DNA of 50,081 bases from a bacterium (GCA_016125385.1 WGLV01000053.1:1-50081); one strand, 5' to 3'. Positions 125-7,242 are shown, counted from the first letter of the stretch. Translations and numbers: made by a program. The notes: generated by a model from the sequence alone, not told the origin.

Positions 125-700
125 GGAGCCAGAAAAGAAGAAGTCAACATCACCCGAGGCGAGTTTCTGCCTCGGATATCTGGACAAGCGGCATGGGGTT
201 TCAACGATCAGGGTGATCCATCGTTTGATAAAGAAGAATGGTCTCTTCGCGCCACCGTTACTATACCTCTATTCGAAGGCGGTCGCCGTATTGTCAAGAT
301 GCGCCGTACTAAAGAACAGGTTTCCGCTGAAGAAGAGCGCTATGAAGACACGATTCGATCGGTGCAAAATTCCGTTGAACAGATTGCGCTATCCCTGCAG
401 GAAGAAAAACGTAACCTTGATATCGCCATAAAAGCTGTCGAAGTAGCCATAGAAAACCATGAACGATTTAAAAATCTATCCCGTGAAGGTCTGGCTGACA
501 GCCTCGACGTCACTCAATCGCTGACAGAACTGGTGGAGGCTCGAACCAGTCTGGTAACAACTCGGTATGGTTATATGTCACTCTACGCTCAAATTCGACA
601 TGTCTTGGGAACAATTCCTCTCGACGAATCCGTTTACTCCAGCATGAACTGGTTGAGTGCGATTGATCTTTCCTCAAATCAAGAGGTCAAGAATCAATGA
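125..700 (+). pseudogene. TolC-family outer membrane efflux protein, 3' fragment
   Basis: The open frame from 125 to the TGA at 698-700 encodes the C-terminal half of a TolC-type outer-membrane channel: a GEFLPRISGQAAWGF strand segment, the IPLFEGGRR turn before the second coiled-coil helix, then a long Glu/Arg/Gln-rich helical stretch ending in LVTTRYGYMSLYAQIRHVLG. TolC proteins are trimeric outer-membrane exit ducts for efflux pumps and type I secretion. The same frame has an in-frame TGA at 122-124, and no clearly TolC-like sequence precedes it in any frame. The gene is therefore either broken by a nonsense or frameshift mutation near 110-125 or truncated by rearrangement; the window edge at base 1 prevents a decision. 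A first ATG inside the fragment at 299 is unlikely to be a real start, because homology begins before it. Confidence 0.65.
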
Positions 701-1225: not shown

Positions 1226-3664
1226 ATGTCAGCCGAAGAGATTCTTGTGGCGCGGGCGAGGTCGCACGTGTTCATCAGCCGGATGAACGCGTGGCTCGCC
1301 GATGAAATTATCAAGGGATGCGACTCAACCCTCCACCCTCAGCCGGTGGCGCTGGAACCGCGCTTCGAGCCGATCGGCTCTCTCTCCGGCGAGCTTCGGC
1401 CGGATCACGTGGTTGAATCACCGCCCGCTGAGGCGGAAGTTCGACGTTTCCAAGTCTGGATGTCTCCCCAACAGCCATTCGATTGGAACAACAGCGAACT
1501 CTTTCTGAAACAACTATCCGCAACGAATCGGCGCGTTGGGTTTGAGATCATCGGGAACGCCTCTCAAATCCTCATCCTGCTGCTGTGCTACCCGGAAGAC
1601 CGGGAGATGCTGCGAACCGTGTTCCATGCGAGGTTCGAGCATTGCGAATTGACCGAGTTCGATCCCGGTTCGATTCAGCATAGGGCTGACGCCGACTGGG
1701 CAAGAGTTCGGTTGCTCGACTTTTACCCGCCGCCGCCTTATTCCCGCTTGCTCACCCGGCCCGCCGAGTTTCAACGTTCCCCCTTTGAGACGCTCATCCA
1801 ATCCATGTTCGAGTTATCGCCGAAAGAGCTCGTTTGGCTCCAGGTCTTGTTTCAGCCCGCGCTGCGCCTTCATGAATGGCATCGCAACATCGAAATCCTG
1901 CTCGACCTGGAATATCACGCCCGCCTGCTGAACGATTCGTATTTCCCCCATCGGTTGGCGCAACAACTGCCCTCCGGCGACCTGCGGCGCATGTCGAACG
2001 ACGCGGACGGCAAGGCGCATAATGACAAGCCCATCTTCGCGGTTTCGGTTCGTATGGCGTATCTCGGGAGTGAAACCGAGGCGAATTGTTTGGAGGCGTT
2101 GTCCACCTTCATACGGTTTTTTCAACATGGAGGGCGCCCCCTGCACCATCTCAATGAGACCGATTATCGGCTCGTGCTGACTCCCGCACAAATCCGAGAG
2201 ATGTTCTGGACCGGAATCGCCTATCGTCCCGGCTTTCTCGTCAATTCCCTGGAACTAACCGGTTTGGCGCATCTCCCCGCCTCCGAAGCATGGAGCCGGC
2301 GAAACGCCCCCATCGACGTGTTGGAGACGTTGCCGCCGCGCTCGAACAATCTCTCCAACGGAACGCATATCGGAACCTGCCATTACGCTGATCAAGCCAT
2401 TCCGATCCGCATCCCGCTTCCCATTCGGCTGCGTCATACCCAGCTGATCGGGCGATCCGGAATGGGGAAATCCAGCACGCTGGAACAAATGATCCTCAAC
2501 GACGCCGAGCAGGGATACGGCGTCGCCGTGCTGGATCCTCATGGCGACTTGATCGATCGTCTCCTGCGCTTGATTCCCGCCGAGGAGGTCGACCGCACAA
2601 TCTTTTTCAATCCGGGCGACGCGGACTACGCGCCGCTGTGGAATCCGCTCACGCCCATCGCGGGGCAGGACGTCGGACGGATGGCGGACGACCTGGTCAA
2701 CGCCTTCAAGAACGTGGTCACCGGTTGGGGCGACCGGCTTGAGCACCTGCTTCGTCACGCTCTCTACGCCTTGATCCAACTGCCGGAGACCTCGCTGTTG
2801 GACGTCTCGCGTCTGATGAGCTTCAATTCACCCGAAAGCAAGACGCTGCGCCGGTTGATCAAGAGCGTGGTCCGAAATGAAAGCGCACGGCAGTTCTGGA
2901 GCAATGATTTTGAAAAGTACGGCAAGGAGGATTTCGGTCCTCCCAAGCATAAACTAAGCAAGCTGCTGCTATCCGATACGGTCTCGCTGATGCTCTCGCA
3001 GCCGGAGAATCGGTTTGACTTTCGCCGTTTCATGGATGAGGGAGCAATCGTATTGATCGACCTCTCATCCATCGGTTCCGAGGCGCGGGACGTGCTGGGC
3101 GGCTTTCTGCTGGCGATCTTCCGGTTGACCGCGTTGAGCCGGGCCAATTCGCCCGCCGAAAAAAGGAGAACGTTCCAGCTTTACTGTGACGAAGCGCATC
3201 GCTTCATCTCCGGCGCGATAGAGGACCTCATCGCTGAAACCCGCAAGTTCGGGGTTGGCTTAACCCTGGCGCACCAATATCTCAACCAGTTCAACCATCA
3301 ACAGGCGGATGCTCTCTCCAGCGTTGGCTCGTGCATCATCTTCAACGTCGACGCTCGGGACGCGCGCCTTCTCAGCAAGGATTTGCGGGAAACCCTCGCC
3401 GTGGAGGATTTGATCACTCTCGGCGTGGGGGAAGCGGTCGTCCGCATCGGTACTGAAATCGTCCGTATCCAAACTCCTCCTCCGCGAGCGATTCCAGCCA
3501 GCCACTTCAAGCAACAAATCATCGAACGGTCGCACCGCCTTTATTACAAACCCAAACGCGATGTCCTGGCTCGCATCCATAAAGGATTCGCTTACGCGGG
3601 TACGCCGCAAGAAGAACCGCATCCCTCCTCAGATGAAGAGTTTCAATACGATGAATTCGACTGA
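1226..3664 (+). CDS. VirD4/TraG-like conjugative coupling ATPase
   Basis: This 812-residue P-loop ATPase belongs to the type IV coupling protein/DUF87 group, which pumps or docks DNA at a membrane channel during conjugation. The Walker A motif GRSGMGKSS lies at residues 409-417 (Lys415), followed by AVLDPHGDLIDRLL, a typical feature of VirD4-like ATPases. Walker B with its catalytic acid is LYCDEAH at 652-658, followed by ETRKFGVGLTLAHQY, the sensor region of the family. About 400 N-terminal residues precede the motor domain and match nothing I recognise. No obvious transmembrane helices are seen, so it may be soluble or act with a membrane partner. The last 14 bases overlap the next gene, implying translational coupling. 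Classical VirD4 is about 550-700 residues, so this one is longer at the N-terminus. Confidence 0.75.
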   Translation: MSAEEILVARARSHVFISRMNAWLADEIIKGCDSTLHPQPVALEPRFEPIGSLSGELRPDHVVESPPAEAEVRRFQVWMSPQQPFDWNNSELFLKQLSATNRRVGFEIIGNASQILILLLCYPEDREMLRTVFHARFEHCELTEFDPGSIQHRADADWARVRLLDFYPPPPYSRLLTRPAEFQRSPFETLIQSMFELSPKELVWLQVLFQPALRLHEWHRNIEILLDLEYHARLLNDSYFPHRLAQQLPSGDLRRMSNDADGKAHNDKPIFAVSVRMAYLGSETEANCLEALSTFIRFFQHGGRPLHHLNETDYRLVLTPAQIREMFWTGIAYRPGFLVNSLELTGLAHLPASEAWSRRNAPIDVLETLPPRSNNLSNGTHIGTCHYADQAIPIRIPLPIRLRHTQLIGRSGMGKSSTLEQMILNDAEQGYGVAVLDPHGDLIDRLLRLIPAEEVDRTIFFNPGDADYAPLWNPLTPIAGQDVGRMADDLVNAFKNVVTGWGDRLEHLLRHALYALIQLPETSLLDVSRLMSFNSPESKTLRRLIKSVVRNESARQFWSNDFEKYGKEDFGPPKHKLSKLLLSDTVSLMLSQPENRFDFRRFMDEGAIVLIDLSSIGSEARDVLGGFLLAIFRLTALSRANSPAEKRRTFQLYCDEAHRFISGAIEDLIAETRKFGVGLTLAHQYLNQFNHQQADALSSVGSCIIFNVDARDARLLSKDLRETLAVEDLITLGVGEAVVRIGTEIVRIQTPPPRAIPASHFKQQIIERSHRLYYKPKRDVLARIHKGFAYAGTPQEEPHPSSDEEFQYDEFD

Positions 3665-4268
3665 ATCGGGCGATCCCAACGGAATTCTCTCTCGCTTGCT
3701 TCATATTCTGAGTGAGGAAGAGTTAGGTAAGCGGATCGACGCTCCCATCGACCGGGCGGTGGAGTGCTTTTCTTTCCCAGAGGAACCCGTTATGGCGTAT
3801 TCAGAATTTCTGGGAACCGCCGCCCGATTTATTCATCATATTCACCAGTTCGGCCTGCCCGTGAGGCGGAAACTCTCCATCGTGCGGGCCAAAGGCGAAG
3901 CCTTCGCAATGCTGAGCGAATATCGGGGGCTGCATGGCAATGGAGTTGAGGCCGCCTGGATCGACGCAAGCCTTTCATACAGTGGGGATGTTGAGCCAGT
4001 TCTCTTACAACTGAGAGAGATCGTCAAGATGAACCAGCGGCGGCGGCACGCGCAATGGATATTTACGCAAGAACTGTCCCGGCTGGATTGGCGAGGCCAA
4101 TGCCGGATGGTGAAAGCGCTTATTCAACCCTTGAAAGAGCATCTCCCTCCCGCGCTCTTCCATTGTGAGCCGGAACAACTCGTGGAACAAATTCCTTCGT
4201 TAGTCCAAATGCGAATCAACTCCGCTTCCCAAATCCGGACAATCCTCGCGAATAATTTTCGTTCTTGA
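3651..4268 (+). CDS. hypothetical protein of the integrative element
   Basis: Not recognised. The frame can start at ATG 3633 (MKSFNTM) or ATG 3651 (MNSTESG); both overlap the end of the VirD4-like gene, and the later one is given here. The product is about 205 residues, predicted soluble, mostly helical, with no signal peptide or membrane segment. It is rich in Leu, Arg and Gln, and has an RRRHAQW basic patch in its middle. No catalytic motif is visible. Its overlap with the coupling ATPase and its position before the primase suggest a job in the element's replication or transfer; this is context only. The frame clearly codes: it is open for 700 bases, while the other frames hold only short ORFs. 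Confidence 0.55.
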   Translation: MNSTESGDPNGILSRLLHILSEEELGKRIDAPIDRAVECFSFPEEPVMAYSEFLGTAARFIHHIHQFGLPVRRKLSIVRAKGEAFAMLSEYRGLHGNGVEAAWIDASLSYSGDVEPVLLQLREIVKMNQRRRHAQWIFTQELSRLDWRGQCRMVKALIQPLKEHLPPALFHCEPEQLVEQIPSLVQMRINSASQIRTILANNFRS

Positions 4269-4328
4269 AATCATTTCCGCCTCTCTCCCGCTATCCCAGT
4301 CAAACAGCGTTGAAAGAACCGTATTCCC

Positions 4329-5345
4329 ATGAAAAGAACAAGCCGCTCCCTGCAACGGAAAATCCGATTGTTCCGCAGTTTATTCTCCGGTCTGGACCGG
4401 GCTTATGGAACGTATGATCCATCCTCCGGCGCGGTCCGGATCGTCAAACGAAGAGTGACGGATAACGTGATCTACAATCATTTGAGAGGTATCCAACCCT
4501 ATGGCGTATTCCTCTTGCGAGGTAATCGAATCAGAGCGGCCGTTGTCGATTTCGACGTATTCGATGTGACATGGCCGTTGTCGTTCATCCATCGAGCCGC
4601 GCATTACCGCCTGCCATGCTATGCCGAGCGTAGCAAATCCAAGGGGTATCACGTTTGGATGTTTTTCGAAGGAGACGGAGTCCTTGCGTCCACGGTCCGC
4701 GTTGTGGTCCGCCATGTCCTCAATGAAATCGAGGCCCCTCCCACTGAAATCTTTCCCAAGCAGGACCGGCTTGTTCCCCAAAAACCGTATGGCAATTTCA
4801 TCAACGCGCCTCTGTTCGGGGCGCTGGTTCCAAAAGGGAAGACGGTCTTCGTGGATCCGGAGAACGCGTTTCAGCCGTATCCGGATCAATGGGACGTGTT
4901 GGAAAACGTTCAGCGGATTGCGGAGCGCCAACTCGATGACATCATCGAGATCAACCAAATCCCGCGTGGTGAATCATCGATACACTACCGTGGCGAAGAA
5001 GAGAAAGGCACGACGGGAAACCGCTTCGCTTTGCCGCCTTGCGCCCGCGCCATGTTGGAGCAAGGCGTCACGGAATACCAGCGCGTCGCCTGTTTTCGTT
5101 TGGCCGTGCAGCTGAAGCGCATTGGCTTGCCCCAGGACGCCGCCATCGCCGTAATGCGGGAATGGACGAAGAAGAACCGGCCACATCCCGGCAAGGGGAT
5201 CATCACCAGCGAAGAAATCCTTGGACAAGTGAAATCCGCTTATGACCGCCCGTATCAGAGTTGCGGCTGCGAGGATCCCGCCATCCGGCCGTTTTGTGAT
5301 GCGAGCTGCCCGATTTTCTCCAAAGTCCAAATAGAAAGGAGGTGA
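4329..5345 (+). CDS. TOTE-type archaeo-eukaryotic primase/polymerase
   Basis: This 338-residue protein resembles the archaeo-eukaryotic primase (AEP) domain of TOTE conflict systems. It carries VTDNVIYNHLRG, a metal-binding DFD at 74-76 within AAVVDFD, the ERSKSKGYHVWMFF nucleotide-binding segment (His108), IFPKQDRL (141-148), YGNFINAPLFG and DQWDVLENVQRI, in the family's usual order. The last 100 residues form a helical primase C-terminal region ending in four cysteines (Cys312, Cys314, Cys323, Cys327 in a CxC-x8-C-x3-C pattern) that could hold zinc or an Fe-S cluster. AEPs make RNA or DNA primers or act as polymerases. TOTE primases usually come with a superfamily II helicase and nuclease; none is visible here. 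The likely role is replication of the integrative element or a defence/conflict function. Confidence 0.7.
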   Translation: MKRTSRSLQRKIRLFRSLFSGLDRAYGTYDPSSGAVRIVKRRVTDNVIYNHLRGIQPYGVFLLRGNRIRAAVVDFDVFDVTWPLSFIHRAAHYRLPCYAERSKSKGYHVWMFFEGDGVLASTVRVVVRHVLNEIEAPPTEIFPKQDRLVPQKPYGNFINAPLFGALVPKGKTVFVDPENAFQPYPDQWDVLENVQRIAERQLDDIIEINQIPRGESSIHYRGEEEKGTTGNRFALPPCARAMLEQGVTEYQRVACFRLAVQLKRIGLPQDAAIAVMREWTKKNRPHPGKGIITSEEILGQVKSAYDRPYQSCGCEDPAIRPFCDASCPIFSKVQIERR

Positions 5346-5352
5346 TGGAATT

Positions 5353-5580
5353 ATGAAAGCCGGAATCGAAATCGTCGGCGTCTTCGAACGGCGAAAGGAT
5401 GAACACGGCAATGAACACTTCGCCGGTTCCCTGGACCCCGCCGCGTTCAAAAAAGCGAAGCGCGAGATCAAGCTGATCCTGATGAAAGGCGATCTGCTGC
5501 CAGCATCGTTGGTGGGGAAGTGTCCAGCGTCGTTGGATAGTCTCTATATGTTTTCACGCGACGATTCGGAGGTCGCGTGA
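5353..5580 (+). CDS. small hypothetical protein, 75 residues
   Basis: Preceded by a near-perfect Shine-Dalgarno, AAAGGAGGTGAT at 5335-5346, six bases before ATG 5353; the site overlaps the end of the primase gene. The product (MKAGIEIVGVFERRKDEHGN...) is soluble and charged and contains a KKAKREIKLILMKG basic helix; I do not recognise it. It begins seven bases after the primase stop codon and is followed at once by a strong intrinsic terminator, so it closes the transfer/replication transcript. Its role is probably accessory to the primase, or regulatory. Confidence 0.65.
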   Translation: MKAGIEIVGVFERRKDEHGNEHFAGSLDPAAFKKAKREIKLILMKGDLLPASLVGKCPASLDSLYMFSRDDSEVA

Positions 5581-5591
5581 CCAATCGTATC

Positions 5592-5633
5592 GAGGAGCTT
5601 GAAGGGTTCGCGTTCAAGCTCCTCCATTTTTTT
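5592..5633 (+). terminator. intrinsic terminator, 12-bp stem
   Basis: A perfect 12-bp stem, GAGGAGCTTGAA (5592-5603) with TTCAAGCTCCTC (5613-5624), has a 9-base loop and is followed by CA and seven T residues (5627-5633). It ends the transcript of the 75-residue protein and separates the replication/transfer genes from the excisionase-integrase pair. Confidence 0.85.
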
Positions 5634-5646
5634 AGGATTCCATCTC

Positions 5647-6000
5647 ATGAAACCAATCGATCCCCACGCGATCTACGATCAGAGCGAACTGCGCGAGCTG
5701 CTGCGCGGCGTCGTGAAAATCGAGCGCCTGCGCCGCTATGGGCTGGTCGGGTCGCCCGGTTGCGGGTACTGGGGACGGAACATTATTGACTCGTTGAACG
5801 AATACTGGGATCATTTAGCTCGTCAACGTGGAACGGGCAAGGTGAAAAAGGAGAGTCACCTTGAAGAAAAACCCGAGGTCTTTGAAAACCAGGACGAACA
5901 AATTCAAAACCAATCGATTCACCCTGCTTCAGGAACGGATCGGCCGTTGGAAAGTCAGCGGCAGAGATTCCGAAGGAAACTATCGTCGAATCCGCTTTGA
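5647..6000 (+). CDS. possible excisionase-like small DNA-binding protein
   Basis: The product has 117 residues from ATG 5647 (MKPIDPHAIYDQSELRELL). The N-terminal 65 residues look like a short winged-helix/MerR-like or AlpA-like module (YDQSELRELLRGVVKIERLRRYGL, then GYWGRNIIDSLNEYW), the sort found in recombination directionality factors. The second half is polar and probably disordered. The final ~140 bases overlap the integrase start in another frame, so the true functional end may be the globular part. Its position directly before the integrase fits a factor that steers excision. The family assignment is weak. Confidence 0.45.
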   Translation: MKPIDPHAIYDQSELRELLRGVVKIERLRRYGLVGSPGCGYWGRNIIDSLNEYWDHLARQRGTGKVKKESHLEEKPEVFENQDEQIQNQSIHPASGTDRPLESQRQRFRRKLSSNPL

Positions 6001-7204
6001 TGCGCCGGATTTGAGTGAGGCGATCAAGCAAGCGGAGTTTTTACTTAGCGCATCCGCGATCCCCACCCCGGTTGAGCCAGTTCCAGCACCCACTGAACCG
6101 GAAGCGGCGGAAGACCCTATCAAACTTCAAATCAGCGACGCCTTGTTCCGATCCTGCGCGGATCGGATATGGACGGAGTATAACCGGCGGATGGAATTGT
6201 CGTACTGCGATTACTTCCTGCGTTGGATCGATGAACTGGGATTAACCCATTGGAACGAACTACGCTACGAGCATGTTCTGAAATACCAGAAAAGCCTCGT
6301 CGATCGCGGTCTCGCGTATGACACCATTCGGTTGTACCTGTTGCCGGTTCGCCGGGCGGCGAAGTGGGTTGCTTCCAACTGGCCGCGCCAGTATGTCAAT
6401 ATCTGTCAAAACCTTCGTCTCTCACGGCGTTCTAATCAGCCAATGGAGTATGACGAAGAAGCGGGCAATCCATATTTGTCGATTCCTCAGGTTCTTGATT
6501 TTTTGCATTGGCTTTCGATGAATCCGCGAAATCATCCCTTAATTGTGGGAGTCGCAATGCAAGGACTTGCGGGGCTTCAAATGAAGGAGGCCTTGCGATT
6601 GACCTGGGAAAAAGTCAACTGGTGTGATGAGACCATCACGATCGATGGCGAGGTGAAAAATCGGTATCGCATCAGACGAATCCCTGTTTCTGGGATCGTC
6701 ATGTGGATCTTGAAGAAATACTCGGAGCCTAGAGGACGTTTTGGTTTTGTTATCAAAGAATACGTTGATCACAAAAACTATTCCCACGCTGTGGCCAAAA
6801 ATTTGAAACGCTGGGACGCCTCCTCTCAAATTTCTCCTAAAGATCTTCGCAACACGCTACAGACTGCGGCGATTGATGGCGGTTGGTACAGTTATTACGT
6901 GCAAAGATACGTAGGGCATGCCCCCCAGACGATCGGTGAACGACATTACCACGGAGACAAGGGGAAACGATTAATCCCACTCTTCAGGCAGCAAGTCGTG
7001 GATCACATTGAGGAGGAGGTAAGAAGGTGGAAAGCGCCGATGAATACCCCTATCAGACCGATGACTGATCAGGAGATTTCGGATAAGATTGCACGAAGAT
7101 TGCACGATCCGTGCAATGCGTGCAATTTTGAAGAAGGCAGTCAATCACCTAACTCCAGTAAAATCAATTCGCGCCGGGAGGGACTCGAACCCCCAACCGC
7201 CTGA
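5861..7204 (+). CDS. tyrosine recombinase (integrase) with altered catalytic set
   Basis: The start is TTG 5861 with GGAG at 5850-5853. The 447-residue protein has an N-terminal arm-binding segment, a SAM-like core-binding domain (about 90-190, with LTHWNELRYEHVLKYQKSLVDRGL) and a phage-integrase catalytic domain. Visible motifs are GLAGLQMKEALRLTWEKVNW (box I), SPKDLRNTLQT (box II, a KxxR variant of HxxR), YVGHAPQTIGERHYH with the probable nucleophilic Tyr. In box I the position normally held by the first catalytic Arg (GLR-x-x-E) is Gln, which is unusual. The last ~11 residues (SRREGLEPPTA) are translated from the 3' end of tRNA-Arg, so the natural C-terminus was created by insertion. It catalyses site-specific integration and excision at tRNA-Arg. 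Confidence 0.85.
   Translation: MKKNPRSLKTRTNKFKTNRFTLLQERIGRWKVSGRDSEGNYRRIRFDAPDLSEAIKQAEFLLSASAIPTPVEPVPAPTEPEAAEDPIKLQISDALFRSCADRIWTEYNRRMELSYCDYFLRWIDELGLTHWNELRYEHVLKYQKSLVDRGLAYDTIRLYLLPVRRAAKWVASNWPRQYVNICQNLRLSRRSNQPMEYDEEAGNPYLSIPQVLDFLHWLSMNPRNHPLIVGVAMQGLAGLQMKEALRLTWEKVNWCDETITIDGEVKNRYRIRRIPVSGIVMWILKKYSEPRGRFGFVIKEYVDHKNYSHAVAKNLKRWDASSQISPKDLRNTLQTAAIDGGWYSYYVQRYVGHAPQTIGERHYHGDKGKRLIPLFRQQVVDHIEEEVRRWKAPMNTPIRPMTDQEISDKIARRLHDPCNACNFEEGSQSPNSSKINSRREGLEPPTA
7170..7204. other. probable attachment site (att) in tRNA-Arg 3' end
   Basis: The 3' half of tRNA-Arg (acceptor and T arm) is shared with the integrase reading frame and is the expected crossover region for tRNA-targeting tyrosine recombinases. 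The tRNA is restored by the incoming element, so it stays intact. The matching direct repeat at the other end of the element was not found in this window. Confidence 0.5.
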
Positions 7205-7242
7205 TCCGAAGTCAGGTGCTCTATCCATTGAGCCACCGGCGC
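7170..7242 (-). tRNA. tRNA-Arg (anticodon TCG)
   Basis: On the minus strand the 73 bases fold as a standard cloverleaf. The 7-bp acceptor is GCGCCGG/CCGGCGC with G as discriminator, the D arm has GCTCAATGGATAGAGC, the anticodon stem CCTGA/TCAGG encloses CTTCGGA (anticodon TCG), and the T arm contains GGTTCGAGTCCC. It reads CGA codons as arginine; A34 editing is not needed since position 34 is T/U. CCA is not encoded. Its 3' half overlaps the integrase reading frame, marking it as the integration target. Confidence 0.95.

Follow-up and report, generated by a model that had tools for sequence, protein, structure and literature searches.

The 50,081-bp stretch analysed here, referred to as the window, corresponds to contig C66 in its entirety, one of 77 contigs in a draft bacterial genome (GCA_016125385.1, WGLV01000053.1; 5.53 Mb, 95.8% complete). 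Near its left end it carries a compact group of genes leading into a tRNA gene (Table 1), namely those for a coupling protein/HerA-type ATPase, a helical protein and an archaeo-eukaryotic primase (AEP), followed by a terminator, a possible excisionase gene and an integrase gene. All of these, the helical one as an unknown protein, had been proposed in an initial annotation made from the sequence alone and are confirmed by open reading frames (ORFs), Pfam matches and the tRNA call. We consider it probable that they represent the right, integrase-bearing end of a large mobile element inserted in the 3′ end of tRNA-Arg, with a primase for its replication and the ATPase as a DNA translocase. The coordinates given in the initial annotation (1226–7204, about 6 kb) cover its right end only; contig C77 of the same genome and an 85-kb relative in another genome show it to be far larger.

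Table 1. Features at the left end of the window (positions on contig C66).
Feature	Position	Strand	Evidence and remarks
C-terminal end of insertion sequence (IS) transposase, at contig break	2..124	+	Frame-2 peptide CYGFRTAKTYILALYHGLGNLPEPKLVHKF, then stop; transposase assigned by eye
Truncated outer-membrane efflux (TolC-like) gene, probable cargo	125..697	+	PF02321, 1.3e-10 (Pfam)
TrwB/VirD4/HerA-superfamily ATPase, core gene, 812 aa	1226..3664	+	PF10412 TrwB_AAD_bind, 3.8e-13; PF01935 DUF87/HerA, 2.2e-6
Helical protein, 205–211 aa	3651..4268 (alternative start 3633)	+	Overlaps ATPase stop codon; multi-copy family
Stand-alone AEP, 338 aa	4329..5345	+	PF22548 AEP-TOTE, 1.5e-31
Conserved 75-aa protein	5353..5580	+	Homologues 57% and 45% identical in the G004 and G005 elements
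Intrinsic terminator	5592..5633 (about)	+	12-pair hairpin, then T-run; z = -3.3
Candidate excisionase, 117 aa	5647..6000	+	Homologues (56% identity) next to related integrases of G009 and G004
Tyrosine integrase	5861..7204	+	PF00589 Phage_integrase, 1.8e-8; last codons within tRNA
Four TTGCACG repeats, candidate integrase arm-binding sites	7089..7125		Two direct and two inverted copies
attR core, 53 bp	7161..7213		tRNA 3′ half plus flank
tRNA-Arg(TCG), target gene	7170..7242	-	3′ half overlapped by attR

The use of a tRNA gene for integration, suggested by the initial annotation, is borne out by the integrase gene, which ends within tRNA-Arg(TCG), and by a second att site. One identical copy of the attR core is present in the genome, on the minus strand of C77 (C77:36163–36215), and in this candidate attL the 5′ half of the tRNA is missing, as expected. 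On the element side of both att copies, in the correct orientation, lies a direct pair of TTGCACG heptamers spaced by 11 bp; none occurs within 250 bp on the chromosomal side of either copy, and the frequency of the heptamer in the window is 0.2 per kb. Because of the att core copy and the shared repeats, C77 is the best candidate for the other end of the element, which would thus extend at least 36 kb further on that contig. The left end cannot lie in the window, since C66 starts at base 1 inside the end of an IS transposase; a left boundary within the window was rejected, the att core having no direct repeat there. The same IS truncates the efflux gene, and an 85% identical copy of its terminal peptide is found on C77. 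The GC content does not separate the element from its host. The integrase reads from a TTG start downstream of an AAGGAG Shine-Dalgarno-like sequence, and its homologues sit at tRNA 3′ ends. Related integrases or primases without the full operon described below were seen in four genomes (G004, G009, G005 and G001; loci L047, L046, L015 and L016), several of them at tRNA genes, and G004 carries a primase remnant.

Homologous islands share a defined gene set. The ATPase, helical protein and primase genes stand side by side in constant order at 12 loci, spread over 10 genomes (G000, G012, G015 with two, G057, G067, G061, G415, G254 with two, G056 and G036) from at least three phyla, and chance is excluded for the set because the same three genes recur in order in other phyla. 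Named relatives include a Desulfobacteraceae metagenome-assembled genome (MAG), a Hydrogenedentes MAG and a MAG labelled Omnitrophota; matches at E < 1e-70 were obtained in 7 of 68 genomes of the Hydrogenedentes phylum and in 8 of the 395 sampled from the Desulfobacteraceae phylum, about three of the latter being full length. No relatives were found in viral contigs. Seven of the 12 loci end in an integrase beside a tRNA (Arg, Pro, Asp, Asp, Glu, Met and Met), with the integrase recognized by profile in G000, G415 and, very probably, G056, by homology in G012 and by reading in the rest.

In the genome studied here, contig C64 bears a co-directional row encoding a 1010-aa HerA-like ATPase, a WD40 protein, a Ser/Thr kinase, a sigma-like protein, a 193-aa protein, a Lon-fold domain fused to a helical domain, and two helical proteins. 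In other genomes, a row of this type runs straight into the ATPase–helical protein–primase set, the full order HERA1-WD40-STK-SIG-P193-LonUNK-UNK-UNK-ATPase-UNK-primase being present in G415, G057, G061 and G067 and partial in others; therefore, we infer that C64 and C66 hold two halves of one system, C64 probably carrying the middle of the element. If C66, C64 and C77 all belong together, as synteny rather than assembly suggests, the element would measure about 70 kb or more. The labels ‘sigma-like’ and ‘SF3-like’ are readings of the sequences with no profile match, and no structural relative of the sigma-like protein was found. In the Lon-like fusion protein (L073:2158–3831), the catalytic lysine is apparently missing, IPEK or LSEK replacing LKEK by eye, so that a protease role is not assumed.

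The complete relative, delimited at both ends, is an 85,039-bp element in G056, in which the tRNA-Met att site is repeated upstream (64 bp, 94%, E = 2.5e-22); for the elements of G415, G254, G067 and G012, the stretches examined yielded no att sites. It opens with Rrf2-, NrfHA-, Hcp- and efflux-like genes (by eye), including RND efflux and OEP-like genes, which is the same sort of cargo as on C77 and in the left part of the window, and continues with a ParA-type ATPase, several tyrosine recombinases, Orc1/Cdc6 (1.7e-22) and an ArdC-like protein before the core operon, which in this element lacks HERA1, WD40 and kinase. Three tyrosine recombinase-like genes stand in a row within it (L118:3224–6562). 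Among the relatives, Orc1/Cdc6 was detected in 5 of 11 element-bearing genomes versus none of 12 others, in G415, G056, G061 and G067 on the contig of the element itself; two of these archaeal-type genes in bacterial elements map to L115:12459–13688 and L118:16793–18055. A P-loop-like gene with a Walker-A-like motif follows the primase in G015, G057 and G067 and gave no profile or structural match. Directly 5′ of the HerA-like ATPase in G415 (L114:15142–18411) are ThiF/E1 (1.8e-33), E2-like (0.0023) and JAB-like (0.0037; JAMM-like motif by eye) genes, and similar genes occur in G057 (L105) and G061 (L111/L112); none of these ubiquitin-type genes was found on C64.

On C77 are genes for Rrf2, a globin, a cytochrome, and nitrite and nitrate assimilation, all but Rrf2 recognized by eye; adjoining the candidate attL, C77:18000–36000 (L014) appears to be a nitrate/nitrite assimilation and nitrosative-stress cargo region. 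The contig also encodes a HerA-type ATPase and a Replic_Relax protein, both shared with the G415 element (E = 2e-71 and 1e-51, respectively), a second integrase, a NikA-like mobilization protein (8e-7) and a response regulator truncated by an IS. Two different CRISPR arrays lie at contig ends, one of them on C77, and type III genes (Cas10/Cmr2, RAMP) are present on the operon contig C64 (C64:1–800, L073; C77:1–340, L013; C64:21500–26249, L080). The spacers of both contigs matched nothing among the sequences compared.

The primase retains all four predicted AEP catalytic residues (D74, D76, H108 and D146). The initial annotation had called it TOTE-type, which is correct as the name of the Pfam domain; the protein itself is stand-alone and groups apart from the TOTE fusions. 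In the primase tree it clusters with other element primases and the G005 primase (support 84/96), with TOTE primase-helicase fusions and phage primases in other groups (100/100 for each), although several branches are long and the deep nodes unsure. An exception is the G012 primase, which clusters with two stand-alone G001 primases; therefore, primases can be exchanged. Five plasmid TOTE proteins annotated as DEAD/DEAH helicase fusions measure 732–817 aa, as against 338 aa for the window protein. The AEP-TOTE domain with intact catalytic residues is common to both, but, unlike in TOTE conflict systems, the window operon has no fused or adjacent SF1/SF2 helicase, and no nuclease belongs to the conserved operon, a PD-(D/E)XK gene occurring well upstream in G415 only. 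That the window contains neither a helicase nor a nuclease partner had been pointed out in the initial annotation. Membership of the TOTE conflict systems was rejected given the stand-alone primase and its separate clade, and an AEP-TOTE match alone does not signify such a system. The best solved relative (2.9e-42) is PDB 7nqd, which, like 7nqf, we take to be the CRISPR-associated primase-polymerase from Marinitoga. This is the closest solved AEP domain, but the window primase belongs to a mobile-element operon and is neither fused to nor directly beside Cas1/Cas2, and its NCBIfam match is far below the cut-off.

The ATPase matches TrwB and HerA by Pfam, and not FtsK. Its structure model (pLDDT 72), in which much of the first 380 residues is uncertain, resembles TrwB (1e9s, TM 0.64), HerA and VirB4, the HerA match being about as good as that to TrwB. 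The designation ‘VirD4-like’ is hence apt insofar as the protein is of the coupling-protein/HerA type and shares with type IV coupling proteins (VirD4/TrwB) the TrwB-type P-loop DNA-binding domain, but, unlike them, it has no clear N-terminal membrane anchor by a simple hydropathy threshold (maximum 1.64 for the window protein; most ATPases of the family stay below 1.7). Homologues in other elements are 34%–48% identical, and phage and plasmid homologues share the P-loop half only, at no more than 32% identity among the matches listed. The C-terminal motif of the window protein, YDEF (within 3630–3664), is acidic and conserved, most ATPases of the family ending in YDEF or YDVF.

Few or no membrane helices are predicted in the core proteins, the kinase of this genome excepted. 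This genome lacks PF03432, the one relaxase family searched for genome-wide, and all ten element-bearing genomes lack the VirB4 family PF03135, with a positive control; therefore, a conventional type IV secretion system in the available sequence is unlikely. Nor do the Pfam matches listed for the G056 element, of which 46 of 91 ORFs were scanned, include a relaxase, secretion or phage structural family.

The helical protein is one of a family of 23 sequences (A5), with three further copies in this genome, all on C64. Its AlphaFold2 model is all-helical (pLDDT 91) and matched nothing among PDB or viral structures. Downstream, the terminator noted in the initial annotation is real, except that it follows the 75-aa protein rather than the primase itself. 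The excisionase-like gene is supported by its position and by its homologues beside related integrases, with no family model or profile matching it.

Parallels with known systems are partial. Actinomycete integrative and conjugative elements (AICEs), such as pSAM2, integrate into tRNA genes, encode Int and Xis, a Prim-Pol-type replication protein and a DNA-translocating ATPase, but no type IV secretion system; this ATPase is the FtsK/SpoIIIE-type TraB, and the hosts are Actinobacteria. The window element also integrates into a tRNA gene by a tyrosine integrase and has a candidate excisionase, an AEP domain that may serve in replication and a predicted DNA-translocating ATPase with no recognizable type IV secretion system; unlike AICEs, it resides in other phyla and has a TrwB/HerA-like pump. 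The parallel is meant as functional, and no membership is claimed. An integrative and conjugative element would likewise have an integrase and flanking att sites, as found here, but neither the PF03432 relaxase nor VirB4 was found. Cryptic integrated elements with AEP primases have been defined by primase families and vary in content (Kazlauskas et al., 2018; PMC5862659). Like the window, they hold an AEP primase within tRNA att repeats without conjugation or phage genes; unlike them, the present elements share a long operon that is conserved and encodes two HerA-superfamily ATPases, a kinase, a WD40 protein and tandem helical proteins, and HerA and VirD4 do not occur in the text of that paper. 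Clade-1 HerA/FtsK mobile operons (PMC10853773) also combine a HerA-superfamily ATPase, an Xis-type protein and a tyrosine recombinase, but the D5-HerA fusion and restriction nuclease of those systems are missing here, and that source does not describe an AEP primase or the kinase/WD40/helical operon among them. The gene combination was not found in the open-access literature, and the family is apparently undescribed as far as that literature and the collections searched are concerned.

The structure of the element, its att sites, the conserved operon and the absence of VirB4 are well supported, and the best reading is a new family of integrative elements that bring their own primase for replication and soluble pumps for DNA. 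Together with the small protein encoded upstream, probably its excisionase, the integrase would recombine the 53-bp tRNA-derived att sites for insertion or excision, and the primase would most likely prime replication of the excised element. The ATPase, a predicted soluble DNA translocase of the core operon, would probably move element DNA, in transfer or segregation, without a recognizable type IV secretion system. Most economically, the conserved operon serves the maintenance or spread of the element itself, and the replication-type neighbours in relatives, namely the Walker-A-like gene, the ParA-type ATPase and Orc1/Cdc6, support this. Several points weigh on the other side: replication and transfer, like excision, are deduced here from the genes; the left part lies on separate draft contigs, whose joining in the order C77–C64–C66, and hence their presence in the same element copy, is inferred; a simple module for replication or transfer would have no need of the kinase, WD40 and, in some members, ubiquitin-type genes; no Orc1/Cdc6 was detected in this genome; and the window contains no replication helicase or partition genes.

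The initial annotation had wavered between a mobilizable element and a defence island; neither is proved, but the former is better supported. A multi-protein anti-invader system carried by the integrative element, in which foreign DNA is captured by HerA-type pumps, the signal is relayed by kinase, WD40 and ubiquitin-type proteins and the primase is accessory, is possible, if doubtful. PADLOC matches both ATPases to mad8 (1.5e-15 and 5.5e-16), and mad6 is matched by the kinase (3.3e-54), largely through its generic kinase domain; these matches are driven by shared kinase and HerA domains, other MADS genes being unmatched among the proteins scanned. HerA/FtsK capture systems that include Orc/Cdc6 are described in PMC10853773, and C64 carries type III Cas genes and a CRISPR array. 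However, the operon has no conserved methylase, toxin or nuclease, a nuclease being the effector of HerA/FtsK capture systems; at 7 of the 12 loci the block adjoins an integrase and a tRNA, as would the core of an element; and two relatives encode ArdC-like anti-restriction proteins.

It is unlikely that the island is a domesticated remnant that has lost its mobility: the IS truncations of the efflux gene at left and of the response regulator on C77 would fit decay, but the window core genes are open with catalytic motifs, and neither att end is damaged, the two agreeing at all 53 bp. An ordinary conjugative element with a relaxase and type IV secretion operon beyond the window, the outcome against which the initial annotation had set its proposal, is very improbable despite the TrwB-like ATPase and the NikA-like and Replic_Relax proteins of C77, since neither PF03432 in this genome nor VirB4 in the ten genomes was detected, and no relaxase or secretion family was among the Pfam matches listed for the 46 scanned ORFs of the 85-kb relative.

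Returning to the integrative element with its own primase and pumps, a more far-reaching version can be offered only tentatively, namely a new class of self-propagating integrative element that would combine an archaeal-type replication module (AEP primase, sometimes with Orc1/Cdc6) with a pair of soluble HerA-superfamily pumps controlled by kinase and ubiquitin-type proteins, and would use a transfer route unlike type IV secretion. Bacterial AEP primases usually reside in integrated elements of obscure biology; here, a conserved operon marks out a family that spans several poorly studied phyla, and one of its members is delimited by both ends. With two DNA pumps and no recognized secretion channel, its mode of movement is directly testable. 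The elements carry adaptive cargo, including nitrate, nitrosative-stress, efflux, CRISPR and restriction genes, and are thus a plausible vehicle of gene transfer in these phyla.

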